The notes beneath the pieces are model-generated. The model made no database searches and was not told the DNA's origin. It saw only the letters and a program-made list of their open reading frames with translations. The position numbers and the translations under genes were made by a program. Of a DNA stretch of 64,000 bases, positions 42,556 to 62,528 are shown one piece after another (the stretch's first letter is position 1; every line of letters starts with the position of its first letter). Origin of the DNA: Siderastrea radians (taxonomy: Eukaryota > Cnidaria > Anthozoa > Scleractinia > Rhizangiidae). The stretch lies in the NCBI GenBank assembly GCA_964017195.1, contig OZ024895.1:20547034-20611033 (forward strand), read 5' to 3'.

Positions 42556-45344
42556 GTGACCCTACTTCGCAAGCCTCTTCACGAATTCAAGAAAAAAAAT
42601 GCTGCTGTCTCCCGAGATAGTAATCCTTGTTTTCACGTGTTTGGCAGCTGGCGCATCCACAAAAGGTACATAATTCTGGTGACGAAATTTAATATTCATC
42701 TCTAGGCAGCTTTAGCTATGAGTAAAAAACAGTCAACGAAACAGCAGCATTAGTTCTAACTTTATTTTGAAAGAGAAGATTTATCTTTTAACGCTATAAC
42801 CTAAACTTAATACACACTTTTTATCGTTAATAAGATTCATTGTAATAGACCAATTCACACTCTTAGTTGCATCATGGGTAATCAGGGCAAGCAGGCAGGA
42901 AATTCAAAGGTTTGTATGGGATTTCAAAGCCAACTAATTTTTCCTGAATTAATATATTTGACACTTTCTCTTTGAAAAGTGTAACTTATGAATTCAAAGA
43001 AACAATACACTAAACCTGGAGTTCATAGAAGTCCATGATCAGTTTTTCGAAAACTTGATTTCTCCCATACATTTTCTGTAATTTTTGTACTGTCGAATAA
43101 TTTATAGAAAATGTATGGGAGAAATCAAGTTTTCGAAAAACTGATCATGGACTTCTATGAACTAATACCCGTTCTAAAAATGGAGATAATTGCAATAGCC
43201 AGGTTTTTTTACGTTATTTCTCTGTTTTTTTCGACTTATACAACCAAATACAACAATTCTTCTTCTACACAAATCAGCTATCAGTATTTTTTTAGTTTCA
43301 GTTAAGAAAACTCTCTATTAATAATTTCAAATGGCTGCTGACAATTTTAAACTTTCGTGCGTTCGAATATTATACCCCGTTCCAGGAAACATCTCTAAGA
43401 TGGATACCCCGTTCTAGATCAGGAGTCCCAAAATCACGACCCCGCCGGGCGGCACATACCCGTGTAGGTATTGTGGGGGAGTACCCCCCCCCCCGGGGTA
43501 CTGGCGCAATTTCCCGCCATTTTATTTCAGTCACATGCTTGTGCGGGCGTCCTCTCGGCTTGTCGCAGGCTTCATGCCAATTTATTGCCCTCGGTTTTTG
43601 GAACTGTTTGCCTTCTACTTTTGGCGTTCCACATGGCCGCTCCGTATTTCGTTTCTTTCCTAGTGGCATTGCTGAGTTCGGATAGTATTTTCAAGCGGGG
43701 ACTCGGCGCTTATATCAGCAAACCGCGTCTGTGCTAGCTTTTTCTCGCCACTGCCCAGCTGTATGTTCAGCAGATGTTGTGGTTTAGTTTCTTCGTCTCG
43801 CTTCAGCTGCAGTGTCCTTTTTACTGCAGAGTTTAATGTAATTCTACGTAGTTTACGTGTGGAAGCGAGTCAGCTTAGTTTATGGCGTGGCGTTAGCATT
43901 AGCAATAGCATTCGTTGGGGTACTGCAGCATATTGGCGTTCTGTGATGTAGCGTTTTAGCGGTAGCCTTGTTTTTATAGCGCTTTGTAGCATTGGCATCT
44001 TATAATAATAATAATATTGGCTGTTTATCTTTTATTGCTATTATTTTTGTTTTGTTTTGTTTTGTTGTTGTTGTTTTTTTGTTTTGTTTTGTTTTGTTTT
44101 GTTGGTGTTTGGGGTTTTTACTGTCCCCTTGCCTGTTAGGGTTGGCGGCGGTTTTAGTAGGTCAGCAGCTTCATTGTGTAGCAAGGTGTATTTCATGTAT
44201 ACATCATATATCATCCCTAGGGCATATGTTGTGTCAGTAGCTGGTTTATACAATTGTGGTAATGGGGGTAACGGCAGTATATTACCTGTACGTAGTACCA
44301 TATTGCAGCATATCGGCGTTTATGTAGCGTTTTAGCAGTTGGCCTTGTTTTTATAGCGCTTTATGGCATTGGCATCTTCCGTTTTAAGTTTTTGTTTTGT
44401 TGGTGCTCGGGGTTTTTCTGTCCCGTTGCCTGTTCAGGTTGGCGGCGGTTTTAGTAGGTCAGCGCCTTCATTGTGTAGCAGGGTCTATCTCATGTATACA
44501 TCATATTTTTCCCAAGGGCATTTGTTGTGTCAGTAGCTGGTTTTTACAATTGTGGTAGTGGGGGCAGTGGCAGTATAGTACATGTACATAGTACCTTGAT
44601 AACTGTAGTAGCTTTGACTGCAGTTGCTGTAGTTGTGGTGGCATGTGTAGCATCCGTAGCAGCTGTAATTTCTGCAGTTGCTGTAGTACCCATAGTTGCT
44701 GTAGTAGTAGTGGCTGCTGTGTGCGTTATCTGTAGTGGTTGTGGTAGTGGGTGTGGCTGTCTTAGCTCGAGTTGCTGTCGTAGCTGTTATTGCTGTACAG
44801 AGAGTTGTTATAGTTGTGCTAGGCTGTGTTTGCCGTTGTGGCGGTAGTTGCTTGGGTTGCCATAGCGGCTGAAGTTGCAGAACCTGCTACATTGTATAGT
44901 AGCTGTAGTTGCAGTAGTGGCATGGTGGCTCCAGTGGCTGGTGTTGCTGTAGTGGCTGTCGTTGCTGCAGTCAGGGCAGTTCCTGTTTATTCATGTAGGT
45001 GCGGGCAGTAGGAGCTACAGTATTTGCCGTTGGTGTAGTTGCAGTTGTGGCGGTCATTGGTGTCCTTGTGGTAGTTGTAGTTTCCGTTGTTGCTGTAGCG
45101 GCTGTATTGGCTGTCTCGGCTGTCATAGCTTTACTACCCGCAGTAGCTGTAGTCTGCACTGTAGTTTCTGTAGCTGTAGGGGTTGCGTGTGCGACACTGG
45201 CTGTAGTCACTAGGGTTGTAGTGGCTATTGTGATTGTAGTTGCTGTTGCCGTGGTGTAGCTTGCGTAGTTACTGTGGCTTGTTTATTTTTTATCTATTAT
45301 TATTCTTTTTTTATTGCTATCATGTATTTACAGGTATCTTCTGG

Positions 45345-45380
<36 letters not shown>

Positions 45381-47020
45381 TATTACTATTATGATTATCA
45401 CTACATATTTACTATGTATTTATTGGTATTTTTATCCAAGCATGGCGTCCATAGCGTGTTCGCTTTGCTTCTTGGGTCAGGAGCCAGAGTGCTTAGTTGC
45501 ACTTGAGGAATTGGAGAAGCATGTTTACAGTAGTTTTAGACATTGTTACATCTTTACTGGTATCACCAGGCCTTTGCTCCTTTGGCTAGAAGCCAGAGTG
45601 CCTAGTGGCTCTTCAGGCACCCCAGTACTCACTGGCGTTTTGTAGCATGTTAGCTGTCACAGTTGCTCCTTGGGCCAGGAGCTAGAGTGCTTAGTTGCAC
45701 TTAGGCGTTGGCGTTCATCAGCGTTTTGTAGCGTGTTAGCTATTAGGGTTGCTTCATGGGCTAGGAGCGAGAGTGCTTAGTTGCACTTGAGGACCCTTGA
45801 GGCGTTGGCGATCATTAGGGTTTTTGTAGCGTGTTAGCTATTAGGGTTGCTCCGTGGGCTAGGAGCTACAGTGCTTAGTTGCACTAGCATTTTCTAGCAT
45901 GTTAGCATTGCTCCTTGAGCTAGGAGCTAGAGTGCTGTATCCTTTTATTCACAGAGTGTTGCTCAGCATTTGCTCCTTCTGCCTGTGTTTTTTCAGGGTG
46001 GTTCCTTCTTCCTTTCGTGTACTAGTGTAATTGTCCAGTGGAAACTTCCGTCACATGCTTGTGCGGTGGGCATCCTTTCGGCTTGCCGCAGTCTTCATGT
46101 CAGTTGCGTTTACCCTCTTCTACTGGCTTTCCTAGCAAGTTGGTGCTTCGTTTCTTCCCCAGCAGCATTGCCGCCTCCGGACAGTGTTTTCAAGCCCGTT
46201 CTTGGCGCATATATCGGCAAACCGTGTCCGGGGTGCGCTAGCATTTTCCTGCCTTTGCCCAGCTATATGTTAAGCAGATGCTGAGGTTTATTTTCTTTGT
46301 CCCACTTTAGCTGTATCCTTTTTATTACAGAATTATATGTTATTCTACCTGGTTACATTTGGGACCAAGTCAGCTTAGTTAATGGCATGGCGTGACGTGG
46401 CGTTAGCGTTCATTGGCGTATTGTAGTATACTAGCGTTTGTGTAGCGTTTTAGCAGGTGGCATTCCGGGAGCGTTTATAGTTGTGGCATTAGTGTCATTG
46501 CTTGTGGGGCGTTGGCGTTCATCGTGTAGAGGGTGTGTTGACAATCATTGATGGAGGGGCAGTTGTTGCTGTTGTGGCTGTGGTAGCTGCAGTTCCTTGC
46601 ATGGCTGTGACTATGGTCACTGGGTTGGACGCAGTGTTGCTGTGATGGTGGTTGTTATTTGTGTGCAGTCCTGCAGCTGCTGTTGCAGGGGTTGGGTGCC
46701 TCGGGATTTGGGCAGTTCGGGGTCATGGCTGTTCCCATCCATGAGCCCCTTTCTCCAATCTGACCTCCCTTCAGCTGGGCGTGTGGGGCTCATGGCTGGG
46801 TTCCGGGCATTTGCCAGTAATGGAGTAGTCCATCTGGGGACCGGCTGACCGCAGTGGAGGCCCCTGGATATCCCAGGCACCCAACCTCCATTATGGTATG
46901 CGAGGCAGTAGGTTAATCTCACTTTAACACTATATATTTGTAATGTAGTCAGAGATCCCCTAAAGGTAGAGGGGTTTTTTAACCCTCGGCTATGATGTAT
47001 GGAGACACGTTAATAAAGTT

Positions 47021-47064
<44 letters not shown>

Positions 47065-50000
47065 TATTATTATTATTATTATTAACCTTGAGCGACTGCA
47101 AGTTCTATAAGAGTAGATGAAGGTACCTGCCTTCTAATGTGAGTGCAGTGACGAAATCATCACCGTCGTGGTCATCGTCATTTCTTTTTACCTCCAGGGG
47201 AAATAATAATTTACAATTTAGCGTTGGTTCGATTATTTAATTGTCCTTTAATGCTGTAGTCCAGTTTCGAGTCTAATGAAGTTGCATTTTTACCCGGTTA
47301 GTGTCAGTCTGAAGTAAAATATACACAAACACCAGCAGGAAAGTGCTGAATGATAAAATAAAACAATATGCAATGTCTTACTGGTACTTGGGAATATTTC
47401 ACTTAAGATTGAGACTGGCTCTGTAAAATCGCGTCTTTTATCTTTTTATCCAGCGGACTTGGTCAGAACTCGAAACTGTTATTTCTCCTCACTATTTTCA
47501 GATGTGTTTGGACCCAATACAATCTGCCCTGATATGTTTCATGACTGTCCAGAAGGAGACCATTGTTGCTGGGTACCGAGCGTTCATTCGTGGTCAAGTT
47601 GCTGTAAACGCTTCACCGAGAAATGCTGTGGAAGCGGAAGGCATTGTTGCCCACGAAGAACGAAGTAATTTGTTGTTGTTGTTCTTGCTGTTTATGTTGT
47701 TGGTATTGCTATAAATTAATTGTTTTTGTTTTTGCCAAACGTTAATGCTATGGTTGTCGTTGTTAACGTTACAGCTATCGTTATTGATGTTTTGTTTCAT
47801 CGATGTTGTTTTTATTATTTTATTGTTGCTGATGTTAATGCTGTTTTCGGTGCTGTTCCGTTTTCGCTGTTTCTGTTTTTGTTGTTACTGAAGTTGCTGT
47901 TGATTTTTTGGTATTGTTCTTCTCGCTCTTCTCTCAAGTCGAGCACCAGACTATGGCATGTAAAGTGGAGATTCAAGTATCAATAATACTTTCACTTTTG
48001 TTGAAAACTATGTTTTACCAACCTTTTAAACGTTTATCTTTATTATGTCCACATTTCATGCAGTTCACGTGACTACGTGACTTGCTGTGCGATGACCCAT
48101 AAATCTGTTGAATTTCATCACGATTATTTCGACCCAGGACGGAGGACGTACGTAGGCGTAGGCAGCCTCGTCCCCAGGCCTTAATGCGCTATCGAGTGAC
48201 TGAAGGAGGCTTGGAACGAACGCGATAGCGCGAGGCGTTCTAGGCGAATATACCGCCGAGCTCGTCGGGTGAAGTCACATATTGATATTTCGCCGAGGAC
48301 GACTGGGAACGAGGCTGAGCCGTAAGGTTTTCCTCCGCGATAGCTTTCGATTTTTTTCTCCAAGATTTTTGTCCGCAATCGGCGTTTTCAGTATCTGTTC
48401 TCAAATCCCTTATCGTCCTTACCAAGATCTTGGGAAAAGTTGTAGAGAATCCTTAGCTGAAGTTACCGTACTAAGTACAATGTCTTAGTAACGTCTTAGG
48501 TTAATCCATGTTTGATTTTAAAAAAAACTGGTTAAAAATGCTTGTTTTTCACCTTTCATCGGTAAAAAAACTGTCTACATAATCATATTCTACAAATCTA
48601 AAATGAAAAAAAATTCAATTTGTGCTCTTTTTCGATGAATTTTATTTAGTTTGGGCAAAAATCCAAGGTGGCGATTACTTTGGCCGCCTTTCGTCATTAT
48701 CATATACATTCCCCAAAATCGATGACAGCAGGAATTTTGGCTCTACAGACAACGTTTTTCGTCGATAGTTTTTGCCCGCCTTGTTGGCATATTGCTTAAA
48801 TAAACAAGTTTTCAAATTATGATTTTAACTGATGCAACTCGAAAAATAATGGCTTTCTTGAAAAGGTACTGTTCCGCGAGCTTTATTGTTTTGTTCCTCT
48901 TATCGCTTTAGGAATAAACTCTGAATACACCTAAAGGAACTTTTATTTAGGCCGAAATCAAAAATAAGAACAACCATGTCTGAATTCGGAACAAAGGGTT
49001 CCTTTTGACATAAATGTGAACACGAAGTTCCTTTTTTATTTAGAATAAAGGGAACTCTTTGTTCCGTTTTGTTCTTTTTAGGAACAAATGGTCCTTTTTA
49101 AATGGTTCCGATTTTATCGAGTGTTCTCCTTCAAACAATTTGTTCCTTTTAACCAGTACATTAAGTTCCGGAGTTCAATAATGAGGAACGATTGTTCCGC
49201 TTCAGTATTTTCTTATGAACAATTAGGAACGTGCTGTTCCTAATCGTGGCTTGTCGTTCCCAAATGTATTAAGTGGTTCCTTTCCAAAGCAATTTTTTTC
49301 GTAAGGAAGTTGTTCCTTTTCCTGCTAAATGGGAACAATTGTTCCGTTTTCAGACTGGAGCTAATAAGAACCGCTTAAAGTTAAATAGGAACTAGAATTC
49401 CCTTTTCACTTGGTTCACTAAATGGGAACGATGGTTCCTATTTAGGTTTCGTCAACAGGAACGCAAGTTCTGATTTTAGTTAGTCAGTCTAACATGCTCA
49501 AGGGCAAATTTAATTTTTAGCCTTGGCTTGCCTGATACATGTTTAATCACGTTAGGGCAGGTTTTGAACAAGATGAGACTTGTCCCTTTGTTCCTTTGTC
49601 TGCTCCTTTGCTTGGTTTTATTGTGTAGAAAACGGGCCAGACATCGAGTGGATACCAAGTCAGCTATTTGGTATAAATACAGTAGTCTCGTGAGAAACTT
49701 CACAATATCAGATCTTAAAAGATGAGTAAAAGAGGAGTGGAAATCGACTGGTCAAAACTACCAAACGCGTCGCCTAAACCCAAAAGGCTTCACTTAGAAG
49801 AAGACGACTCTGATGGTCTTTTTCACTGCCCAGTGCAAGGCTGTAAGCATGATGGATTTACCACACAAAGAGGCTGCAGAAAACACGCCAAGAACAAACA
49901 CCGTTGGTACTTTTATTTCGACAAAAAGCCAAACATTACTCAGATCGAAGCATGCCAAGAACAAAGCAACAAAAATGACGCCAATGATGACAAGACTTCA

Positions 50001-53000
50001 CTTAAAATCAGACGAGCTCTCTCTTTTGACAAGTCAAGCAAAATTGCTCAAGATTTTTTGTCCTGGCTTACCGGCAGTGGTGGTGGTTGTAAAAGCGATC
50101 GGCAAGCACACCAAATTGTCAGCAGGTGTTTGAAATTTCTTAAATTCTGTTGCGAAGACGACGAGGATCTCACATTTGAAATCGTTGACTTTAGTCTATG
50201 TTCGCCTAATCTCCTTTTCAAAATTGTTGACGTGATGCAAGATGAGTGGAATCTCGGGCATGCAGGGCACATAGGCTACTTGGACGCCATTGCAGAATTG
50301 GGGGATTTCAGAAAAGTTAATGGAGCTTCGGAATCGGTATTAAGAGGGTTATCTTGTACAGAACTGTACTTGAAAAAAGTGCGCAAAACCGTCTCCAAGA
50401 TGATGCGATTACAATGGACGAGCGAACTCGATATCGACGCCTTAGAAGCCAAGGGACACTGGGCCACCCTCGAAGAGCTCTTGGAAGTCGTGGGGCGATA
50501 CTTGCCGCGCTACGAAAGCGTGCTGAAGTCATGCAAGGATAATCCAGGTTCGATATCCCCACTTGACTAATCTTTTGCTACCAAATTCTCGCCGTATATT
50601 TGTTCATCAAGGTTAAAGGCTCGCGCCCGATGACATATTAGTATTTAACTGTTGAAATGGTGAACAAAGCTAAAACTAACAGTGGATTTATTGATCAGAA
50701 AATGTTCAAAACAGCAGGAAAATATGGCTTTGATTCTCTTTACCTGACCGAGACTAGCATACAAGTGTTAGATGGCTACATCGAGCACATTCGCCCTCCG
50801 CTCAAGCCGAACTGTGATTATGTTTTAGTGACGAGAAATGGAGGACAACACAACAAGCTAGGAGAACTAATGAGTAAACTGGTCTTCGATGCAACAGGCA
50901 AGTACGTTCATCCGACTCGCTATCGACAAATAGTCGAGACGGCAAGTACTAGACATCTTAGCAGCAGTGCTCAAAGCACAGTTTCCGAAGACCAGAAACA
51001 CAGCTCTGTCGTGGCAAAGGTTCACTATCAAAAACAACGATCGCGCGAGGTCGCTAGTAAAGCGCACAAATGTTTGAAAAAACTACACGGCGACAAGGGA
51101 ACAGAGCTAGAAATGGAAGTGCGCTCGAGACTTTCAGACAAGTCAACTTCTTCACAAGAGCACAGTGCTGACAAAAGCGATAGTTCTCTAACCGACGAAG
51201 ACGAAACGATCACTAAAACAGACAAACAGACAAACAAGAAATTGGCGCGAGAAGAAAAAATGTGATGTTCACTCCAGAGGAAGACAAATATCTGCAAGCT
51301 GGACTTAAGCGATACGGCTTCGGTCAGTGGAAAGCGATTCTCAGAGACCCCGATTTTCATTTTTACGAGGGAAGAACACCTAACTCTCTCCTGAGCAGGG
51401 CAGCAAGAAAATTTGGATCCTATTCTAAACGATAGAGCATTATCCCAAGTTAGCAGTGATTGGTTATGGCCTGCCAATCACATACCGTTTTCGCTTCCAA
51501 GAGCATGCTTGGAAATGTTTCTTAGCTACAAATTCTGACGACATAGAGCATTTTGCCTCTTTCTCTGCTGCGCCGAATGAGTAAGATGAACAGGATTGCA
51601 GAAAAACATCCCGCCCTGTCTTTGAGCGATCTAAAATTTGCTGGGGAATATTTGGAAGAAATTTGTGCCTGTGACTACCCGAAAGAAACGGCTTTGTTGG
51701 CGGAAAGTCTACTTTGGCGACACTTGAACAAAACTTCAAACAGGAAAAGGTCTACATTTAGAGAGCTGATCCTGGCCTGTCTTTTTATCGCCATAAAACT
51801 GGAGGATCGCGATATTGCGAGAAATAGCCTATTTCTAGACACGATCTCGTCGCCAGTTCAACGATCGGACATTCTTCGAGAAGAACTTGATGTGCTACAA
51901 TCGGTGAACTGGAGGCCCTTGGAACATTGCCACATGATCGCGAAAGATTGTCCTTAGCAATTCAATTCTACCGATGTGAACACTGAGAATGATAAGACCA
52001 TAAGTTTGCTGCACACTTGACGTTTATTAATTACCGTAGAACGTAACATAGGTATACATATTTCAATAGAAAATGTAACGGTCCTACCCATGAAATAGCC
52101 TTGTTGTCTTCTTTACAATTCAATTGACTTACATAAATGCCTGTTTCTACTCGTTTTTATTGAAATCTGATCTAGAACAATACAAATGGGCTGGATTCAC
52201 AGCTGTGAGCTAAAGAACTTCGTAATCTTTATCTGACGATTCGGCTGCTGGGAGAGAGTATTCTTGCGCTTTTTTCCTCTACCCTTGTGAACCAGGAATG
52301 GACGCTGTTCGGGCTCGTCCTGCATGCGTTGTGAAGAGGGTACTTGCGTGAAAACTATCTGCCGTTCATCTTCCTCTTCTCGGCCACTCTCCCTAACACA
52401 GCAGCTTTCGGGAGTGCTCTCGACGGTCGCGCCCTCATTCGTGTCGTTACTGCCACTAGCTGGGACGTTTGCGTTTTCGGCAGGCCAGTCCTTCATTGGT
52501 AGGGCCTCGTTTGTATGTTTCGCGCCTCTGCGGGACTGACAAGTCCCAATTTCACACAGGCCAGTCGTCTTGCTTTCACAGCAAAGTTGCACAGGGTGCC
52601 AGAATCCTCGTGCAGTGTTTTTAATGCTTCCTGCAGCACCTCGATGCGGTACTTTACTGCCATTTGGTCAATCCGAGGATCTTGCCCTTCCACGAACACC
52701 TTTTGCAGCTCATGCATCTCTTTCTCTCGTTCCAATATACGCTCGTCTTCAAACATCCTTCTTACAGCCAACCTTTGCTCTCTCTCTTTTCTCTCTTCCT
52801 CTTCTCTGCGACGAGTCGACAAAGCTTCTCGCTGTCTTTCGACGAGGTCCTCCGGGAGGGTCCAAGGATTGACCATGATACGTGCCCGATCGTCTTCTGA
52901 GAGCTCACCAACTACCCTTTCTAAACTGCAAATTACGAGAAAAAAAAAGATACATTTCAGGTGACGCTATGGCAAGGCGTTTTTACACACTGTATGTATT

Positions 53001-56000
53001 GTATATTGTGAGCGCTGTTCCAGTCTTTTCTTAGAGATTGCATCGTCCCATGTTTTATATAATCATGGCAACGTTTTTCCGGTGCTTTTGTAATGGGTAG
53101 ATTGTGCTAATGTGCCTTACTAAATGTGTTTAACGAAAAATACCTTTCAATCGCCTTTTCCGCAGAATCTTTCAGCCACATCTCTCTTGCGCTATCCCTT
53201 GTTTGGAGGAGTGCCGTCAGCTGACGTGATTCTAGGCTGCCTTCACGAGTGTGCTCAAGGTGTTGCTCCAACGATTCCATGTCACATGAAACATACTGCG
53301 ATGCCTGTCGCAGTGGACTAGCAGGAGTTTCGTCAACCAGATCTTCGCTCAAGTTAAATTGAAAAAGTTCTTTGATCTCGTCATCGTTAAGCTCTCCAGC
53401 TAAGGTCGTTGATGTCTTGCCACCCGTTGAATTTGGTTGACTGGCCATTTGAATTGTCGCCCAGTGGATACAATCCATGGGATGCTTTTCTAACCACCCA
53501 ATTGCTGCTGGGTTCACGCTTGGTAACGTTTTGAAGATGTACTTATTGAGTCTGGAATCCATGGCAGCCTGGTGATCTTTTCCAAAGTCCATTGGCGTCT
53601 GGCATGTAATCAGCATTGGAATTCTGTTCATAAACCCCTTTGGCGACTTGTACTTGCAATCGTTTGCCGTCCACCCTCCTTGAGTTGCCACCTGTAATGT
53701 AACAAAACCAGAGAACAAAACTAGTTTTCCATTAGCTGAATGACCGTATTGAGCGTTGAAATCTTAAACTGTGTTGTGCTTGTCAAAAAATTGTCTCTTA
53801 ATACCTCTTATTTACAGTCGATCTGAAATATCTAATGTTAAGTGTAAATATTTTTGGCATGTACGTGCGCATTTCTGAACGTAATCTGTTAAGTTACCAG
53901 AGAAAGGATCTTACCTTCCAGTCGTCGACGTCCATGAGATCAGCTGTTGCTTCGTCGAGGAACATTACTTCGCAATCTTTCTTCATCATTGATTTGTTAA
54001 AGTGTCGCTGTTTGGTTATCTTGCCAATGCGGTGTGTAGGGACAATTCCTCTTATTGGCGCGAAAAGGCTTGTTTTGCCGCTATCGGCGCTTCCAATGAG
54101 ACAAGGAACCTATAAGGGAATAGCATTGCCATATATGACTTTTGCGGTTCTTATTACTAAGGTTTTCATTTTTACTTAGCTAACGACAAAACGCGTAAGC
54201 AATTTATCTTATGATGGGGTGAGATCTAAACCGCTGTAAATACTCACAGCATGAAAATGGAGTTTTACGGAATAATAAAAGTTGCTTAAATCTCCTTAAA
54301 GTTGGTTATCCACATTTAAGCTATGAATTAAATGTTCTTAAAGGCCGTTAAACCTGAAGTTGGCATTTAAGAAACTTTACACGTTACACCACAGTAAGTT
54401 CTGTTTTCATGCTTTGAATACACATGTATACTATACCTTTTGCTTGGGCGTTTTCTGGTTAAATCTGAGGAGGTTGATAAAGCCGTGGCAGAAAAGCTGT
54501 ATTTCGTGCTTGTCTAGGCTGTTCTGTAGAATTTGTTTAAAGTAGCGCGGATTTGGTCCGTTGAAATGGTCGTACTCCACAAAGGCTCTAGGAGAGACTT
54601 TCCCAAATTCACTCTGTTCAATGGCATCTTGAATGGATGTTTTTGAATTAATCGAAAAACACCAACCATCTTTTACTTCGATTAAGTCGAAATTTACGAC
54701 AAGCTGTCTAATCGTTTGGCTCTCGGGTCTTGATAGCCGTTCTCTCACTTGATCCCCGTGCTTGATAAGGTCTTCCCGAAAATTTTCATTGCCCTCAAGC
54801 GCCCTTAACCAATCCACCACACTACATTTATATCTGTAGGTGTATTGTGATTCTTTTACTTTCTTGTACATTGAGCCTCGATACAGCTTGTAGCCCAGAC
54901 TTTCCATAGCCCTCTCTAGTTTTCCAAATAGCACAACTTTTGGATCACTTGTGATGCACTTGTGTGGTGTGTTGGTTGTCAGCATTTCGTTTGAATCGGC
55001 GTCAAAAATGTCCACGCGAAGACCGGCCTTTTTCATTGCCTCCAACGCATTGGTGATCTGGTTCTTCTTTTTTGATGATGCGTTCATGTGACAAAATACC
55101 ACTTTTTCCGTTGAGCGGTTTGTCGACGATGAAAGCAGATCTTGACAGGACAGTTGGTCTGCAAAATCTCTCATGGTTGCTTGAAAAGAAGTTTCAACCA
55201 GCTCAATCACATAAGATGAGCTGTGATCCTTTAAGACGGGAAATAAAGAGTTGATGGATTTCTCCACCGTCTTTTGAATCTGGACATTAATTTCCAGCTC
55301 ACAGGAAAGGAGCACTTTTTTGATTGGAAGCAATGAAACAGGAGCTCCTGTAGAACTTGTGAACGCCATCCAAAACGAAAACGAGGGAAACCGTTTCTTC
55401 TCGGCTGCCATTGCAAAGCTTCTCTCAGTTGCCTGAGATATTTGCGAGCTTTCTGAAACTCCGCTGTCTTCATTTTCATCACCATCTTCATCGTCGTTAC
55501 ACTCTTCAGAATTGCTCTTCTCTTTATCTTTTTTGGGGGGTTCTTTAACTCCTATTGCCGAAAAAAAGAATTCTAAGCCTTCGAGGGTCAACAAGGACCG
55601 ATTACATTCTTCTCTCTTCTTGCAAACTAGCTTCCACGCCTCTGTCAGATCTTTTCTTTGGACTCTCCATACACATGTTGCAGTCACGACGGATAAACGA
55701 CTTCGTATTATGGGGGACAGGAAACACGATGCAGCGTCTTTGATTGCTTTGCTGTTAAGCTGTCGAGCAGGATTTCTTGCTGATCTATACATCTCCCTGT
55801 CTTGCACGTAACTGAGGCAGAGACACGATTTCGTTTTTCTTTTATAGTTATCCGGGCACATTCCTCATACATATCGGCGCACCCACGCACGCACGCACGC
55901 ACGGAATTGTGCAATTAACTTGCTGATTACACAATTGTGTTACCTTTTTATCGAATTCCAACCTTGTGAAAGAAATAGTTGTACAATTAACTTGCTGATT

Positions 56001-57910
56001 AAACAATTGTGTTACCTAACCATCGAATTCCAACCTTGTGGCAGAAATAGTTGTTTCATTAGCTAAGGCTAGGAGAGACGTGGTTCTCAAAGTTGAAGAA
56101 TTCTATTGTCCAGAACACTACAAATAAAATGTCATTTGCACGATCTCGTTCAAGAAGAATGCACTCTCATCAATACAAATTCAAGCAATAAGAACATTGT
56201 TTCCATAACAATCCTCTAGCTTGATGATGGCATTGTCTTATTGAAAATTCGCTGTAATTAAAAATGTGTCGATCCGTTCTCTCTGGAGTCGAAAGTTGAC
56301 AATAAAGCTTTGTTGGGTTTATTACGTAAAGAATAATGGGGAATCCGTCAGTCCGCCGATTCGTCATGTCAAAGAATTTATTTTATTCCGTCACTCTGAA
56401 ATATAAAATGCTTATTCCTTGTCGATTTAACTGTATCTATTCAAGACTGGAAGTACTGTCTCCGTGGATCCGCTTATCCGTCCATGTAATAAACTTTTAT
56501 CGGGGCTAGGTTGGTAATCAGATTTTTTTTTCAGATGGACGGAACCACGGATTCACGGATTTCTCCCCTTAAAGCTCTATAATGTTGAATCCGTAGATCC
56601 GTCATTTTGAAGTAAAAAATGCATATTCCTTGTCAATTTAAAATGTATCTATTCAAGACTGGAAGTACTGTCTCCGTGGATCCGCTTATCCGTCCATGTA
56701 ATAAACTTTTATCAAAGCTATGTTGGAAATAAGATTTTTTATACTTTTTTTTTCAGATGAACGGAAGGGCGGATTCACAGATTTGTTCCCTTAAAGCTCT
56801 ATAATGTTGAATCCTTCACACTGACTTTGGCAATCAGAATTTTTTCTAAGATGGACGGAAAGACGGATTTACGGATTTTATTTTAATAAGCTAAATATTT
56901 AAATAAATAAATAAATAAATATATATATATATATTTATATATATATAAGTAATATGTTAATACTATTAATATATTAATAATACTAATATATTAATAATAT
57001 TAACATATTATATATATATATATATTTATTTACTTATTTATAAGCTAAATATTTATATAAATAAATATATATATCCACGGATCCACGGAGACAGTACTTC
57101 CAGTCTTGAATAGATACATTTTAAATTGACAAGGAATATGCATTTTTTATTTCAAAATGACGGATCTACGGATTCAACATTATAGAGCTTTAAGGGGAGA
57201 AATCCGTGAATCCGTGGTTCCGTCCATCTGAAAAAAAATCTGATTACCAACCTAGCCCCGATAAAAGTTTATTACATGGACGGATAAGCGGATCCACGGA
57301 GACAGTACTTCCAGTCTTGAATAGATACAGTTAAATCGACAAGGAATAAGCATTTTATATTTCAGAGTGATGAAATAACAAAGCTGAAGTATATGATTGC
57401 CAGCCTCATTTCGGTAAAAATAAAGGTGTAGATGGACAAATAGAGGGATCCACGGAGACAGAACTTCCAGTCTTGAATGGGTACACTTCAAATAGACAAG
57501 AGACAAGCCTTCAATATTTCAGAGAACATTTCAAACTCTATCGCAAGTAATCGTATATTATACCCACGCGTTCCAGTTCTTCGCTTCGCAGTTGTCTTTA
57601 ATAGAGGGAAATTTTTCTAGCTACGAAAACGTGAACATATGTTCACTTTGAAAGCGTTCGTCTTTCTTGTGACCCGTCTTGACATTTAGAGGAACATTTG
57701 AGCCCCTTTATTGCGTTCCCTTACCTCAGATGACAAACTGCCACTTTATACTTTGAAAAAGGGGAAGCTAGTTCGCTTTTACTCAGAAACCGTCATCCGC
57801 CTTATTAGAAAAAAGCATTTAAACCAGAATCTTATGGCTTATTGCAGTAATGAAGTTCAAGGTTTGTAAGGGAACAAAATTTTTGGAAAACGATCATCAT
57901 CATCATCTTC

Positions 57911-57963
<53 letters not shown>

Positions 57964-57966
57964 TAC

Positions 57967-58006
<40 letters not shown>

Positions 58007-58611
58007 GTCCACGACATTCAAAGCGCAAAAAATTGGCGTCAGGCGCTGGTATGGTTATACTGCTCACTATCAAGTCTGGCGACCGCAGACAGAGAGCACT
58101 CTCCTCAATATATGAGTTGTCCCAGGAAATGCTGACCTCTGCAAGGTGTTGATATTAACTTTGATTCCAAGTTGTGTCACATACTTCTTCAGACTCTTCG
58201 GGATACCGCCTAGAACACCGATAACCACCAGGACCACTTTGGTTTTCAACTTCCTTGTTGTTGTTGTTGTTGTTGTTGTTCTTCTTCTTCTTCTTCTTCT
58301 TCTTCTTCTTCTTCTTCTTCTTCTTCTTCTTGTTATTGTTGTTGTTGTTGTTGTTGTTCTTCTTCTTCTTCTTCTTCTTCTTCTTCTTCGTCTTCTTCTT
58401 CTTTCTCTTTCTCTTCCTCTTTCTCTTCTTCTTCTTCTTCTTCTTCGTCTTCTTCTTCTTCTTTCTCTTTCTCTTCCTCTTTCTCTTCCTCTTCTTCTTC
58501 TTCTTCTTCTTCTTCTTGTTATTGTTGCTGTTGTTGTTCTTCTTCTTACTATTATTATTATTCTGATTATTATGATTATTATGATTATTATGATTATTAT
58601 GATTGTTATTA

Positions 58612-58663
<52 letters not shown>

Positions 58664-61600
58664 ATCAGAGACTCCCAACAGCGACTTAAACCCAAAAATT
58701 TACCTCATCTTGTCGAGCACGTCACAAATTATCTATCAAGGATAAAATCTTTACTACCACGGAGGGATGTCAGTTTGTATGTAGAAAAAGGGTCGAATGT
58801 TATGGAAATTGTTGAGAAATATTAAGATTTAAAGGTGATATGCCTTAAAGTTCATATTAAATATGATGGAGACCAAAACAGTTTGCTATCAATTCAAAAG
58901 TACTCTTGTGTGATTACGGCTGTTTAACTAGTTGTACGTAACATTTCGCCATCTGTCTTGCCTGTGGCATTTTATCGTGTTGTTTCTCTTTCCTATTATC
59001 AGTAATGTTTAACAGTTATTCTTATATCACTGAGTCGATGTTGTTTTTGTTGTTAACAGGTGCTGTAGAGGTGAATTAATTTGCTGCATGGCAGTAAGAC
59101 AGATGTAAGATTGAAATTGGTTCTCTCTTTTACATTTGCATTTCTCTCTAGTCTTTCAGTTCTAGTTAGCAATCAGTTCTAAGCAATCGTTCTCAACGAT
59201 TCTGGTCATAGGACCAGGCCAGCTTGTATTAGAAGATCAGTCATTACATCTGAAGCAGTCATGAAAACGTGGTAAGGAAACAAGTGAACGGATACTTGTA
59301 CAAAAAAGACTTTTTGGACAGTATCTCGATAAGTTAAAACTAAAGCTCTAAGCAATTTGAACTCAATCCGAAAGACTTGCAAATTAAAACTAGCAATTTT
59401 GCTTTTCCGACTGTATTATGGGTCGTTTTTTTGAGTGGGCGAAAAGTCGAGCTAAGAACAGCACCATCGCAACAACAGAACCCGACTTCCATCCACCTAA
59501 GAAATGTTCTCAAATCATCTTCTAGTCATAATGCATCAAATTCGAGCAAATGTTCTCACACCCGTAACGAGCTTTTATATTCGCATCAATTTTTTATGGC
59601 TTATACGAAAAACATCAAACACCTCAAAGGCATCTAGATCGAACTGCGACTAAATAACATATCACATTCTATCTATTTCTTAAAAATCAAACTGTAATCT
59701 CCCCTTGAGTTAATCACCTTATGTTCATGAAATTGTCTTGCGCGCCTTTCATTTTTTACCCTGGTATTTGGTATTGTTTCTTTCCTAATGTTTTAATACT
59801 GTATGATATTCTTATATCGTTAATTACATTCCGTTGTCGCTGTTATTACACAGATGCTGCGGTGAAGGTGCCACTGCCTATTGCTGCCCCAGCAGTCTCA
59901 GGTAAGATTAAAATCAATTTCTCTTTAAGGTGATTCCCCAGAAAAAGAATCTTCCATAAATTTGTAATGAAACTTGGCACAAATATTCAACAAGTCATGT
60001 AGGGTCTAAAATTGCAATAAAAATGGGTCTCACCGTGCTCGTTTTAGTGGTATCCTGTAGACGAATACAGCGTTTAAAGGCATTTTCAGGCAATAAACGC
60101 GCGAAGCCAACATGCTCAATATTTCCACTGCAGATTGATATTTCATGTGTAGGTTGACTTTGTACATATGTATAGTCATCTGTGTCATACAAAACATGGC
60201 CGATAAGCTTCAAATTTACTGGACACTCAAACAGTAGACGGTGACGACGGTAACTTGATGTGCGGTCCTCTACCCTAAATGGCTTTTTTCGTAGGATTTT
60301 TTAAACTGTGCAAAACTGATCTGATCATAGATTTTTGCTGACTTTGTTATTTGGCTTTGGGAACACTGTCTTGATTGAGTTTATACAATAAAAAAGGGGG
60401 TCACCGTGCTCAATTAGGAGAAAACGACCATTTATTTCTCTGAACAACTCAGTTTTCATAGAAAACCTATCAAGTTCCATCCTCGGAGCTAGTCGGGACG
60501 ACGGGATTTTCATGGGCGAAAGTTTACAACAAGAGCGGGAGAGCCCCTGGACACTTACTCTTACCACTTCCAGAAGCGTTTGAATTCTCTCCTTCTGATT
60601 GGCCAGAAAACTATTTTTCGACTCTCATGTCTTCTTACACGAGGTTGTTTTCCTCATCGATCGCCGTAGTAGCGTGGCCCGTTCAACGGGAACATTTTTG
60701 AGGAGAGCTTCAGAAAAAAAAACAATAATAAATAAACGAAGTCGAGGAAATCGCAAACTATAACGTGGCCGCAAGAAAACAAACACTCACAGGGAATTTT
60801 TCACGGCGGATTTATCAAAGGTATCGCAAATTTTTAGAGCTAGCGACTTCCCCTTTCTCCAATGTAGCTTATTATTTCTTCTTCTTCGTTGATCTTCGTC
60901 TGAAACTTTCCATCTCTGATGTACGGGCCACGCAACTATGTTGATCGAGCGTGTCATGTCACGTACCAGAGAGAACTAGTTCTCTCTGGTACGTGACATG
61001 ACGTCGCATCGACCGTTAAGCAGAAAATCGCCCAGATCGGCCTCCAGAAGCTCGGAAAAGCAATAAAAACACAGCAAACACACAGCAGGTAATGTTTTTC
61101 AAACTGTATTTCCATTTTAATGCATTTATTATTTCGATCGAATTTCAGCTCCATACAAACACTCATATTACGCTTTGGTTAACTGTGGTTCCCACGCTCG
61201 ATCGACATAGTTACGTGTCCCGTGCATCGGAGATTCCCGTGGAGAGTTTCAGACGTAGTTCAACGAAAAAGGAGAAATAATTAGTAGCATCGTTTACTCG
61301 AGTAGCTATTAGCCTCATGCAACACTTGAGAAAGGGGAAGTCGTTAGCTCTAAAAATTTACGATACCTTCGATAAGTCCATCGTGAAAAATCCCGGTGAG
61401 TGATGTTTTCTTCTGGCCACGTTATAGTTTGCGATTTCTTCGACATCGTTTATTTATTAAGTTTTTTTTTTCTGAAGCTCCTCAAAAATGTTCCCGTTGA
61501 ACGGGCCACGCTACTACGGCGATCGATGAGGAAAACAACCTCATGTAAGAAGACATGAGAGTCGCTCGGCTGTTCCTCTTCGCTGATTGGCCAGAAAAAT

Positions 61601-62528
61601 AGTTTTCTGGCCAATCAGAAGGAGAGAATTCAAACGCTTCTGGAAGTGGATCGGTAAGAGTAAGTGTCCAGGGGCTCTCCCGCTCTTGTTGTAAACTTTC
61701 GCCCATCAAAATCCCACCGTCCCGACTAGCTGCCTCCGAGGATGATCAAGTTCTGAACATACGCGAGCTCGTGCGCGCGCGCTGATCACGCAAAAAATCA
61801 TGCGCAGAAAGGATGCGCAATGCAATTGAATGGAATCACCTTAATTTGCGTTTCTGTCCAGTCTCCTCCCCGTTTTACCGCTTGACTTTTTTCCATCTCA
61901 ACGGTTGGAACAGGCTCGCTTGCAGTAGAGGATCATGGATAGCATCTTAGTAGTAGGAGAAAACGTGGCAGGGAAACAACCAAACGGGCACTTATGCAAA
62001 CAAATAAAGGCTTAGTAGAAAGTTTTTCGAGACAGTAAAACAAGTTGAGCCAAGAGAGGATCTCTATTGGTTGAACATTCTCGCGAAGGCGAAATGTCGA
62101 GCTATGAACAACGATCACCACCACCACTTCAAACAACAAAAGCACAGTTACGTCCAAAGTGCCTTTCACCTCTCAGTAAAAGAAAACACTCAAAAGGCAT
62201 CTAGTGCGAATTGCAACTAAATAACGCCCTTATTTCGGGTTGCTAAATATTCTGGAATTACCGGGAAGGCACTCCCTTCTGTGTTTGTTCGGAATCCGTA
62301 ACAAAAACAGACCACTTATGCACCTAGAAAATGATGTGGTCAGTGTTGATGCTTTGTTTTCGTTTGTTATGCAGATGTGGTATACGTCACGGAGAGTGTC
62401 GTTCTTCCTCAGGAAACGTCATTCCGTGGCCGCTGATGCCGGGACGAGTCCAGGCCACCCAAGCCACTGCTGCAGTGGCAAAGGATATTCTTGTTGCCTC
62501 AAAACTCAGCCAAAGTAGCGATCCTTAA
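42556..62528 (+). CDS. Secreted granulin with expanded cysteine ladder (5 coding exons)
   Basis: Exons 42556-42665 (CDS from 42599), 47502-47664, 59060-59104, 59854-59901 and 62375-62528 join in phase (1,2,2,2) into a 158-residue precursor. Residues 1-22 are a hydrophobic signal peptide. The cysteines then run single C31 and C38, eight CC pairs (44, 56, 64, 71, 78, 85, 93, 102) and single C109 and C116. Canonical granulins are secreted growth-factor-like modules with two single cysteines, four CC pairs and two single cysteines, folded as a ladder of hairpins. The YCCPSSLRCGIRHGEC end matches the usual HCCP..xC.....C terminus. A 42-residue polar tail follows. Intron 2 (11.4 kb) houses the recombinase/helicase element. 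The exon joins are my inference from phase, splice signals and cysteine pattern. The exact function is unknown. Confidence 0.75.
42599..42665 (+). CDS. Granulin coding exon 1: signal peptide
   Basis: Starts MLLSPEIVILVFTCLAAGA, a classical hydrophobic secretion signal ending in small residues. The ATG follows an A-rich leader within an exon whose acceptor (GGTTTTAG) lies at 42554-42555. The donor AAAAG/GTACAT leaves one base. Confidence 0.75.
43019..43162. repeat. Long palindrome, ~64-base arms
   Basis: GGAGTTCATAGAAGTCCATG at the left pairs with CATGGACTTCTATGAACTA at the right. The pairing is nearly perfect through GAAAACTTGATTTCTCCC to a short loop near 43090. Confidence 0.88.
43480..47087 (+). 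repeat. Composite repeat ending in a (TCA)n(TTA)n tail
   Basis: The block 43530-43860 recurs diverged at 46050-46350 (TCACATGCTTGTGCGG..., CGGCAAACCG). Units around GCGTTTTGTAGC and GTGTTAGC recur at 45630-45960 and 46380-46560. The right end reads GATGTATGGAGACACGTTAA followed by TAAAGTT(ATC)n(ATT)n, a tail typical of non-LTR retroposons. No credible ORF, so a non-autonomous or rearranged retroposon is inferred. Confidence 0.55.
44590..45260 (+). repeat. GTAGTTGCTGT minisatellite, three-base periodic
   Basis: Diverged GTTGCTGTAG/GTGGCTGTAG units keep a strict three-base period over about 670 bases. Several frames are open on both strands as a result. Confidence 0.8.
47502..47664 (+). CDS. 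Granulin coding exon 2: N-terminal granulin half
   Basis: Encodes residues 23-76 with CPDMFHDCPEGDHCC, WSSCC and GSGRHCCP, the granulin spacing C-x6-C-x5-CC-x10-CC-x6-CC-x5-CC. The donor AA/GTAATT overlaps an in-frame AAG TAA stop (47663-47668). Failure to splice would therefore give a truncated form with 10 cysteines. Confidence 0.82.
47669..48165. other. Start of granulin intron 2
   Basis: T-rich with imperfect TTGTTGTT runs; no gene recognised. Confidence 0.4.
48166..48318. mobile_element. MITE with CAGCCTCGTCCCCAG ends
   Basis: CAGCCTCGTCCCCAGGCC and GACTGGGAACGAGGCTG are inverted. Internal GCGATAGCGCGAGGCG palindrome. Confidence 0.75.
48871..49459. promoter_or_regulatory. Cluster of 25 GGAAC/GTTCC pentamers
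   Basis: I counted 25 occurrences of GGAAC or GTTCC on the plus strand within about 590 bases. Roughly one would be expected by chance. They occur in both orientations with irregular spacing and stop about 260 bases before the recombinase ORF. This could be the subterminal or origin-like binding array of the element below, perhaps for its zinc-finger or Myb protein. Confidence 0.6.
49722..51265 (+). pseudogene. Zinc-finger tyrosine recombinase of a mobile element (broken)
   Basis: Two open segments, 49722-50570 (282 codons) and 50657-51265 (202 codons), are parts of one gene. The first has a C2H2 finger (C36, C41, H55, H60) and a helical region like a core-binding domain. The second has the tyrosine-recombinase signature HPTRYRQIVE (H85, R88), then QKHSS (H115) and HY (Y124, the probable nucleophile). 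The first catalytic arginine lies in KGSRPM at 50615-50632, which is readable only through the gap. The gap holds a TAA at 50568-50570, a frameshift near 50590 and a TAG at 50639-50641. An intron is a weaker alternative. Expected role: site-specific integration and excision of the element. Confidence 0.8.
51265..51435 (+). pseudogene. Myb/SANT-like DNA-binding fragment, likely recombinase C-terminus
   Basis: A 56-codon frame beginning MFTPEEDKYLQAGLKRYGF and containing QWKAILRDPDF has the spaced aromatics of a Myb/SANT helix-turn-helix. It overlaps the recombinase stop codon in another frame (TGATG). It therefore looks like the original C-terminus separated by a one-base indel in the AGAAAAAATG run, although it could be translated separately. 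Confidence 0.6.
51577..51957 (+). CDS. Small cyclin-box protein of the mobile element
   Basis: A 126-residue ORF with LAESLLWRHLNK, then TFRELILACLFIAIKLEDRD and ILREELDVLQSVNWRP. The pattern of a helix, ACLFIAIKLE and a final VLQSVNW resembles the first cyclin fold, where cyclins read xCLFIASKxEE and xLxxLNW. It lies 140 bases after the Myb fragment, on the same strand and between the recombinase and the convergent helicase gene. The ATG at 51577 is chosen because an in-frame stop lies upstream. Binding to a host CDK is inferred. It is shorter than a normal two-fold cyclin. Confidence 0.55.
   Translation: MSKMNRIAEKHPALSLSDLKFAGEYLEEICACDYPKETALLAESLLWRHLNKTSNRKRSTFRELILACLFIAIKLEDRDIARNSLFLDTISSPVQRSDILREELDVLQSVNWRPLEHCHMIAKDCP
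52197..52592 (-). pseudogene. Frameshifted C-terminal extension of helicase with PIP box
   Basis: This frame overlaps the end of helicase exon 4 (52493-52592) and has no good ATG. It is polar, and its C-terminus has QIKITKFF, a full PCNA-interacting (PIP-box) pattern Q-x-x-I-x-x-F-F six residues from the end. The likely explanation is a one-base indel in the overlap, so that the ancestral helicase ended in this motif. Confidence 0.55.
52493..55861 (-). CDS. SF3/NS1-like helicase gene of the mobile element (4 exons)
   Basis: Exons 54437-55861, 53915-54109, 53144-53691 and 52493-52925 join in phase to about 860 codons. Exon 1 (475 codons) has an acidic linker and a domain leading into the ATPase. 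Exon 2 carries Walker A GSADSGKTS and Walker B VMFLDEA. Exon 3 carries KYKSPKG and the motif C-like MLITCQTPMDF, the order A-B-B'-C seen in superfamily 3 helicases such as the NS1 class. The remainder is charged, ending in a long Glu/Arg coiled coil in exon 4. Expected role: replication of element DNA. The start may instead be the internal MYRSARNP methionine. It converges on the recombinase/cyclin genes. A frameshifted extension carries a PIP box. Confidence 0.78.
55905..56055 (+). repeat. Two tandem copies of a ~75-bp unit
   Basis: Units share CAATTAACTTGCTGATTA, ACAATTGTGTTACCT and TCGAATTCCAACCTTGTG. They lie just upstream of the helicase gene start (minus strand) and may be its promoter or the element end. 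A (GCAC)n run precedes them at 55878-55902. Confidence 0.6.
56395..57370. mobile_element. Long inverted repeat (foldback), ~976 bp
   Basis: The left arm from about 56395 and the right arm to about 57370 are reverse complements for several hundred bases, including TCCGTGGATCCGCTTATCCG on the left and its complement on the right. The left arm itself repeats a ~240-bp block twice. The centre (56880-57075) is AT-rich with (AAAT)n and (AT)n tracts. Confidence 0.75.
57371..57908. other. Granulin intron 2 sequence after the foldback
   Basis: A partial extra copy of the GGATCCACGGAGACAG block is seen at 57445-57480. Otherwise no gene or clear repeat. Confidence 0.5.
57909..58006 (+). repeat. (TTA)n microsatellite
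   Basis: About 30 nearly uninterrupted TTA units with one CTACTA interruption. Confidence 0.95.
58252..58662 (+). repeat. Compound (TTG/TTC/TTA)n microsatellite
   Basis: Alternating blocks of TTG, TTC (with TCTTTC interruptions), TTG and ATT. A duplicated TTC block occurs at about 58380-58505. All three-base periodic, so every frame is open without being coding. Confidence 0.95.
58663..59059. other. Granulin intron 2, distal part
   Basis: No gene or repeat recognised. The 3' end supplies the acceptor tract before 59060. Confidence 0.4.
59060..59104 (+). CDS. Granulin coding exon 3: extra CC-x5-CC module
   Basis: A 45-base exon (acceptor TTAACAG, donor GTAAGATT) encoding CCRGELICCMAVRQ in the phase left by exon 2. 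A weaker donor exists at GCA/GTAAGA, but it would break the frame with exon 4. Confidence 0.62.
59854..59901 (+). CDS. Granulin coding exon 4: CC-x7-CC module
   Basis: A 48-base exon (acceptor TTACACAG, donor GTAAGATT) encoding CCGEGATAYCCPSSL. The YCCP motif corresponds to the HCCP near the end of a normal granulin. Phase matches exons 3 and 5. Confidence 0.72.
59926..61845. mobile_element. Inverted-repeat transposon in granulin intron 4
   Basis: Ends are AAGGTGATTCC at the left and its complement GGAATCACCTT at the right. Subterminal arms match over hundreds of bases (about 60470-60860 with 61330-61740). A perfect 50-bp palindrome sits at 60953-61002. No intact ORF, so non-autonomous. Confidence 0.65.
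62375..62528 (+). CDS. Granulin coding exon 5: terminal cysteines and tail
   Basis: Acceptor TTATGCAG. Encodes RCGIRHGECR, supplying the last two granulin cysteines, then a cysteine-free tail starting SSSGNVIPWPLMPGR and ending at TAA (62526-62528). Another frame of the same DNA contains HCCSGKGYSCC, but it does not fit the exon 4 phase. Confidence 0.68.

Follow-up and report, generated by a model that had tools for sequence, protein, structure and literature searches.

A 9-kb mobile element of the stony coral Siderastrea radians joining a tyrosine recombinase to an SF3 helicase and, in some lineages, a cyclin

Animal DNA transposons are mostly thought to depend passively on host replication. 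SaPI islands integrate at att sites by means of a recombinase, encode their own replicative helicase and hijack packaging; replicons of the SV40/papillomavirus type pair an SF3 helicase with host polymerases and manipulate the cell cycle. Members of the tyrosine recombinase superfamily share the catalytic signature R...HxxR...H...Y. PMC3212892 gives this R-H-R-Y signature, states the rule for the sites of such enzymes (11–13-bp inverted arms and a 6–8-bp core), and describes Cryptons as present in cnidarians and thought to move as circles, fungal Cryptons being bounded by direct repeats of 4 or 6 bp; animal Cryptons are described there as encoding the recombinase only, and the word “helicase” is absent from its main text. 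Among Polinton-like viruses, according to passages of PMC4642659, some carry a tyrosine recombinase and some have a primase–SF3 helicase.

The locus described here lies in a 64,000-nucleotide stretch of the S. radians genome (assembly GCA_964017195.1, contig OZ024895.1, positions 20,547,034 to 20,611,033 of the forward strand), called the window below and used for all positions without a locus name. Window 48699–57897 is a single copy, core to core, of a multi-copy ~9-kb element, which we take, with a probability of roughly 0.78, to be an autonomous mobile element of animals that lives in the manner of an integrative plasmid. Among the matches listed in a literature search of open papers (subscription papers, Repbase and Dfam lay outside it) there is no account of this gene set, and no open paper searched combines “Crypton” and “SF3 helicase”. 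The features of the window copy are as follows.

48699..57897, no strand: whole element, lineage A; ends common to other copies, and a tail–head junction at locus L021
48699..48718, plus: left end, 8-bp core ATCATATA and inverted arm CATTCCCCAAAA; left end recognisable in 15 of 20 A/B loci
48701..49600, no strand: GGAAC/GTTCC array, several as GGAAC-N4-5-GTTCC palindromes; 26 sites where shuffles average 1.88
49722..51435, plus: recombinase, comprising C2H2 finger, tyrosine recombinase and TRF-like Myb; from frame, fold and Myb match
51580..51957, plus: small one-box cyclin, nearest solved structure cyclin E1; from PF00134 (E 1.6e-9), PDB matches and purifying selection
52197..55864, minus: SF3 helicase gene in pieces ~55864–54431, 54109–53894, 53763–53107 and 52966–52197; from predicted exon ends and relatives
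52197..52230, minus: PIP-like motif QIKITKFF at the helicase C-terminus; from sequence and homologue tails
56383..57378, no strand: large origin-like foldback with CGGAT repeats and AT-rich centre; two arms (161 and 148 nt) with 99% complementarity
57880..57897, plus: right end, arm TTTTTGGAAAACG and core ATCAT; from comparison of copies
57898..58010, no strand: target, short (ATC)n and then (TTA)n microsatellite; from sequence

Copies, ends and insertion sites

Alignment of 20 fetched loci to the window places a common left end at ~48699 and the right end at 57897, such that the span 48800..56060 proposed in an earlier, sequence-only reading is too short and its right limit of 56060 has been abandoned. 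In the 805-Mb genome a 1-kb recombinase probe has at least 41 matches (the best candidates scored), 24 of them near full length at 90–100% identity, 13 at 82–83% and 4 partial. We distinguish at least five lineages: A and B (window type), C, D and E. Lineages A and B share ~95% DNA identity across the left half and have helicases that are just 39.5% identical, and the halves have therefore been exchanged. (Loci L012-L028, compared with the window, display a half-element exchange directly behind the cyclin gene, with a boundary near window 52029.) Judged by near-identity between copies, the element is recently active: two lineage C copies on separate contigs are 99.9% identical, and many lineage C recombinases are 99–100% identical to each other.

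At L021 the tail of one lineage A copy is directly joined to the head of the next, and the joined ends read GAAACG-ATCATATA-CATTCCCC; those of lineage C (L029) read GGGAAACG-ATCATCTA-CATTCCCC, and those of lineage D (L032) GGGAAACG-ATCTTATA-CGTTTCCC. The lineage D site has near-perfect ~13-bp inverted arms flanking an 8-bp core, in agreement with the site rule of PMC3212892, and the arms of A and C are imperfect. Comparison of copies thereby shows a discrete 9-kb unit with conserved ends, whose joined ends read as a site of the tyrosine-recombinase type.

Joined ends were read for lineages A, C and D, not E, and A/B flanks were read by eye. Direct repeats occur at both junctions (TCAT in lineage A, ATCAT(C) in lineage C). 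In A/B, all 15 left ends that could be located have TCAT at the end itself or directly ahead of it, mostly within (ATC)n; these 15 include L028 (a loose motif match) and L021 (the tandem junction), the other five of the 20 loci (L016, L022, L024, L025 and L026) having no recognisable left end. Lineage C targets are (ATC)n. Seven of 11 lineage D left ends sit directly behind another copy's right end and four are single; the single ends (two ATCTTA, two TCCTA) match the cores of tandem copies of the same sub-lineage, ATCTT having been predicted before the flanks were read and the TCCTA group recognised only afterwards. Lineage E has CCACCA ahead of the left end in 9/9. All 12 right ends read (window, L010, L014, L018, L034, L056, L058, L060, L062, L063, L064 and L065) enter trinucleotide repeats within ~30 bp; L065 has ATCGT in place of ATCAT.

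For the copy at ~C12:3461850-3470834, a paralogous site that is empty lies at C12:3460900-3461110; its flanks match at 90–97% with only an (ATC)n stretch in between, as expected of a clean insertion. Only L067 is counted as an empty site; L066 was rejected as being without a left flank, and L068 as having its left flank present and its right flank shortened. Read from these junctions, insertions sit where the target repeats part of the core, and copies chain into tandem and mixed arrays. The suggestion that the element inserts by its recombinase gains from all of this: the att arms, the core–target match, the tandem junctions and the paralogous empty site together lend good support to insertion by the recombinase where the core is matched.

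By eye, L042, one of the seven lineage D left ends behind another copy, directly follows an apparent lineage C right end, a mixed tandem array. The last 1.5 kb of L031 holds a lineage C copy preceded by a short remnant of another copy's right end; this lineage C copy seemingly adjoins cytochrome P450-like sequence (also by eye).

Genes and origin-like sequences

Across 34 aligned homologues of the recombinase, the four ligands of the C2H2 finger never vary, and each of the catalytic residues R314, H409-x-x-R412, H439 and Y448 is invariant or conserved to at least 90%, bearing out both the finger and the recombinase motifs first noticed in the window; the predicted fold is that of the tyrosine recombinase superfamily. 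The window copy is broken, being disrupted near 50570 (stop and frame change) and again by a second frame change ahead of the Myb part. Intact copies are present elsewhere in the genome, and L029:905-2698 carries the recombinase as one 598-aa frame including the Myb. A Myb-like fragment had been listed as a separate piece; the Myb is present (PF00249, E 5.5e-7), and this single frame identifies it as the recombinase C-terminus and rules out a gene of its own. Foldseek returned zero significant matches with the recombinase model as query, the VIA-align matches listed include no Crypton or T-antigen structure (which excludes neither), and a PDB sequence search with the recombinase profile found Myb-type proteins only. 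At E up to 1, neither DUF3504 nor any Pfam recombinase model matches a single one of the 34 members; DUF3504, whose model describes domesticated relatives, is a weak Crypton test. In PHROGs, the main genes of the element match weak families only.

The cyclin-box frame behind the recombinase was rightly recognised, with matches to PF00134 (Cyclin_N) above the curated cut-off in both lineage A and lineage D (E 2.6e-9 in the latter); in the PDB, every one of its 10 matches with E of 0.01 or lower is to cyclin E1, the best having E 0.0012. Among 75 scored recombinase matches, a cyclin lies behind the recombinase in 39/39 A/B/D rows and 0/36 C/E rows. Viewed from the cyclin, 54 of 71 loci have a same-strand recombinase <3 kb upstream, and the remaining 17 lack one among the 73 recombinase candidates scored out of 748. 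On this distribution the cyclin is a conserved but optional module; because it is missing from lineages C and E, it is not essential to the family. Between A and D, 80 of 122 cyclin residues are identical (pS 0.74, pN 0.21), giving a dN/dS of ~0.08 with dS near saturation. A further cyclin-like match (64% over ~50 residues), which may stem from capture or fusion of a copy, lies at G000:C4:7586054-7586206 within an open frame of 1735 aa.

Convergent to these genes, on the minus strand, is the helicase, in which GSADSGKTS forms Walker A and VMFLDEA Walker B, as originally described. Its earlier label of “SF3/NS1-type” holds in its first part (Walker A/B, profile matches), and the second part is probably wrong because the predicted fold is closer to D5-type helicases. 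At E up to 1, 23 of 31 homologues match DUF5906 (best 1.3e-6, the L029 helicase itself falling under the curated cut-off), 17 match Parvo_NS1 and 9 match papillomavirus E1. The best PDB match to the predicted fold is the SaPI5 primase-helicase; other matches are D5 proteins and, at a weak level, the SF3 helicase of mavirus. A PDB sequence search with the helicase profile has no SF3 helicase among its matches. Parvovirus NS1 kinship was dropped as the best label on profile counts and predicted fold, and the helicase is probably closer to D5/primase-helicase SF3 proteins than to the NS1 type.

PCNA-interacting proteins carry a PIP box of consensus Qxx[ILM]xx[FY][FY], and the window helicase does end, as claimed, in the full consensus. 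The looser [ILMV]xx[FY][FYLI] is found in 73 of 78 selected helicase C-termini, with Q in 17 of these 73 (counted by eye); the 78 tails are a selection from 120 homologues, 42 having been set aside because their end is not of SQ/QK/QQ type, and 8 of those 42 carry the motif anyway. Ahead of the PIP-like tail an F-[IV]-T-P-x-P-S-like segment recurs in the alignment (by eye), a possible CDK site that is of interest next to an encoded cyclin.

Recurrence of the same genes in the same order at unrelated loci with common ends had been named as the check on the proposed element; order, orientation and ends are indeed fixed in many copies and five lineages. A helicase match lies within 6 kb of 39 of the 75 scored recombinase matches, always convergent and downstream (C 25/26, D 8/31, E 6/10, A/B 0/8), the low D and zero A/B figures accompanying a lineage C helicase query with just 56 scored candidates out of 663. 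Behind the cyclin, 8 of the 20 fetched A/B loci carry on with the window-type helicase half, L012 and L016 have the diverged type B helicase in that place, and the D locus L032 also carries a helicase, such that each of the five lineages A–E has one. Beyond S. radians, relatives of the two enzymes occur in other stony corals, and those of the recombinase also in Nematostella: named recombinase relatives come from Porites, Oculina and Nematostella (best 120 of 847), and named helicase relatives from Porites, Oculina, Acropora, Montipora and Desmophyllum (best 120 of 162). Four contigs, one of just 21,646 bases, are taken as common to both sets of best 120 because their lengths agree exactly. 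With synonymous sites saturated, pN is 0.20 between recombinases of C and D, 0.22 between those of C and E, and 0.34 between helicases of C and E; on these substitution figures and those of the cyclin, all three genes are under purifying selection, now or long in the past.

Outside the genes, the left 900 bp hold 26 GGAAC/GTTCC sites in A, 31 in C, 38 in D and 17 in E, against maxima of 6, 7, 7 and 8 in 500 shuffles (counts begin ~135 bp inside the unit for C and ~195 bp inside for D). Six GGAAC-N4-5-GTTCC palindromes were located in the window array, which represents possible regulatory or replication sites. Near the right end lies a foldback with arms of 161 plus 148 nt in A, 314 nt in C and 382 nt in D. 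The densest 1500 bp hold 21 CGGAT in the window (shuffle mean 2.99, maximum 9), 12 in C (maximum 8) and 16 in D (maximum 11), excesses that are somewhat flattered by picking the densest stretch before shuffling. In lineage E (L033:600-5000) there is no such foldback, and its 5 CGGAT equal the shuffle maximum. By their sequence, the foldbacks of A, C and D and the palindrome arrays look like origins.

Two further features lie outside the element in the window. Just beyond it, 60487–61731 forms a second large foldback (arms 56–103 nt, 87–100% complementary), possibly a separate foldback transposon; at 44000–46000 there is strong strand asymmetry (GC skew 0.26, AT skew −0.39), accompanied by short repeats of GTTGCTGTAGT and TTGCTCCTTGGGC type.

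A plasmid-like model and its alternatives

In the model we favor, the recombinase would circularize the element and integrate the circle by crossover in the core, a step for which the junctions argue strongly. The SF3 helicase, probably D5-like, may then unwind an origin, for which the foldback and the GGAAC array are candidates, and the circle would be copied by the host replisome, with the C-terminal PIP-like motif helping to recruit PCNA; host enzymes are invoked because no polymerase was recognized and because of the PIP-like tails. More speculatively, in lineages A, B and D the cyclin might partner a host CDK and favor S phase at the time when host polymerases are needed. Episomal replication, PCNA contact and the pushing of cells to S phase are thus what we infer, and the element may behave as an animal-borne, plasmid-like parasite.

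We would give even odds to a broader proposal, namely a new superfamily of self-replicating integrative plasmids of cnidarians with their own origin, a PCNA-hook helicase and an S-phase cyclin, in which the 8-bp att core sets the target, lineages shift target by changing the core, and insertion into simple repeats or each other is harmless. If true, an element with helicase, origin-like sites and cyclin would represent a postulated plasmid-like stage between transposons and small DNA viruses, and a further source of cyclins besides cells and viruses. With core and target so matched, the choice of target by the recombinase can be put to a direct test, and the near-identical open copies are a source of natural recombinases that act on simple repeats of an animal genome.

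The cyclin and PIP-like tail could instead act off the cell cycle, the cyclin being a CDK adaptor for phosphorylation of the element's own proteins and the tail binding something else. We consider this doubtful, but it would account for the recurrent FITPxPS-like segment, for a cyclin with a single box that is absent from C and E, and for tails mostly without Q (17 of 73 selected tails have it); against it, the nearest solved cyclin is the G1/S cyclin E1, as S-phase control would predict, by a similarity that is weak.

An unlikely origin for the element is a degenerate virus, that is, a virophage- or Polinton-like lineage with tyrosine recombinase and D5-type helicase whose capsid genes are lost or elsewhere. 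The fold matches to D5 proteins and, weakly, to the mavirus helicase are in its favor, as is the occurrence of both enzymes among Polinton-like viruses in passages of PMC4642659, which also report the recombinases of that group to be of several unrelated kinds, a point on the other side. No capsid, packaging ATPase or polymerase, and no other viral morphogenesis gene, was recognized in the nine leftover frames of the complete units L029 (C) and L032 (D), for which the best and single Pfam match has E 0.04 and PHROGs gives zero; two one-protein scans of viral contigs found no relatives; and the same two or three genes recur across five lineages, the small gene set therefore being stable.

Equally improbable, in our estimation, is a plain Crypton, a recombinase-only DNA transposon that has captured a helicase and a cyclin. 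Cnidarian hosts, presumed circles and terminal direct repeats are shared with the Cryptons of PMC3212892. The recombinase-only character of animal Cryptons is not found here, with a helicase in A–E, of a kind that viruses and bacterial islands are known to carry, and a cyclin in A, B and D; the lack of DUF3504 and Pfam recombinase matches points the same way, weak as DUF3504 is as a test.

A chance juxtaposition of separate repeats is suggested only by the exchanged halves of A and B and has been dismissed as wildly improbable, since a fixed gene order and orientation recur beside common ends in many copies and five lineages, the recombinase probe alone has its many genome matches, and recombinase and helicase relatives from other sources lie on four apparently shared contigs.

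Comparison with known systems

The integrative, plasmid-like element resembles Cryptons (CryptonA/I/F/S), as PMC3212892 presents them, in its tyrosine recombinase, presumed circle, short terminal direct repeats and cnidarian hosts. Unlike them it has a helicase, sometimes a cyclin, and an origin-like foldback, gives no DUF3504 match, fuses its recombinase to a C2H2 finger and TRF-like Myb, and uses core-matching, often microsatellite, targets. With Polinton-like viruses and virophages it shares a recombinase and a probably D5-like SF3 helicase, both kinds of gene occurring in that group (passages of PMC4642659); it differs from these viruses of about 20–30 kb in its 9-kb length, its residence in animal chromosomes, its cyclin, and the lack of a recognized capsid, ATPase or polymerase.

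By analogy, bacterial integrative plasmids and SaPI islands likewise appear to combine recombinase integration at a core-matching att site with their own replicative helicase, whereas the coral element has a eukaryotic host, many copies, tandem arrays, a cyclin and a PIP-like motif, with no packaging hijack seen. From SV40/papillomavirus-type replicons it is set apart by a helicase that is probably D5-like rather than T-antigen/E1-like by predicted fold, by integration through its own recombinase and by having no recognized capsid; the analogy with them would lie in an SF3 helicase that works with host polymerases and in the cell-cycle manipulation proposed here.
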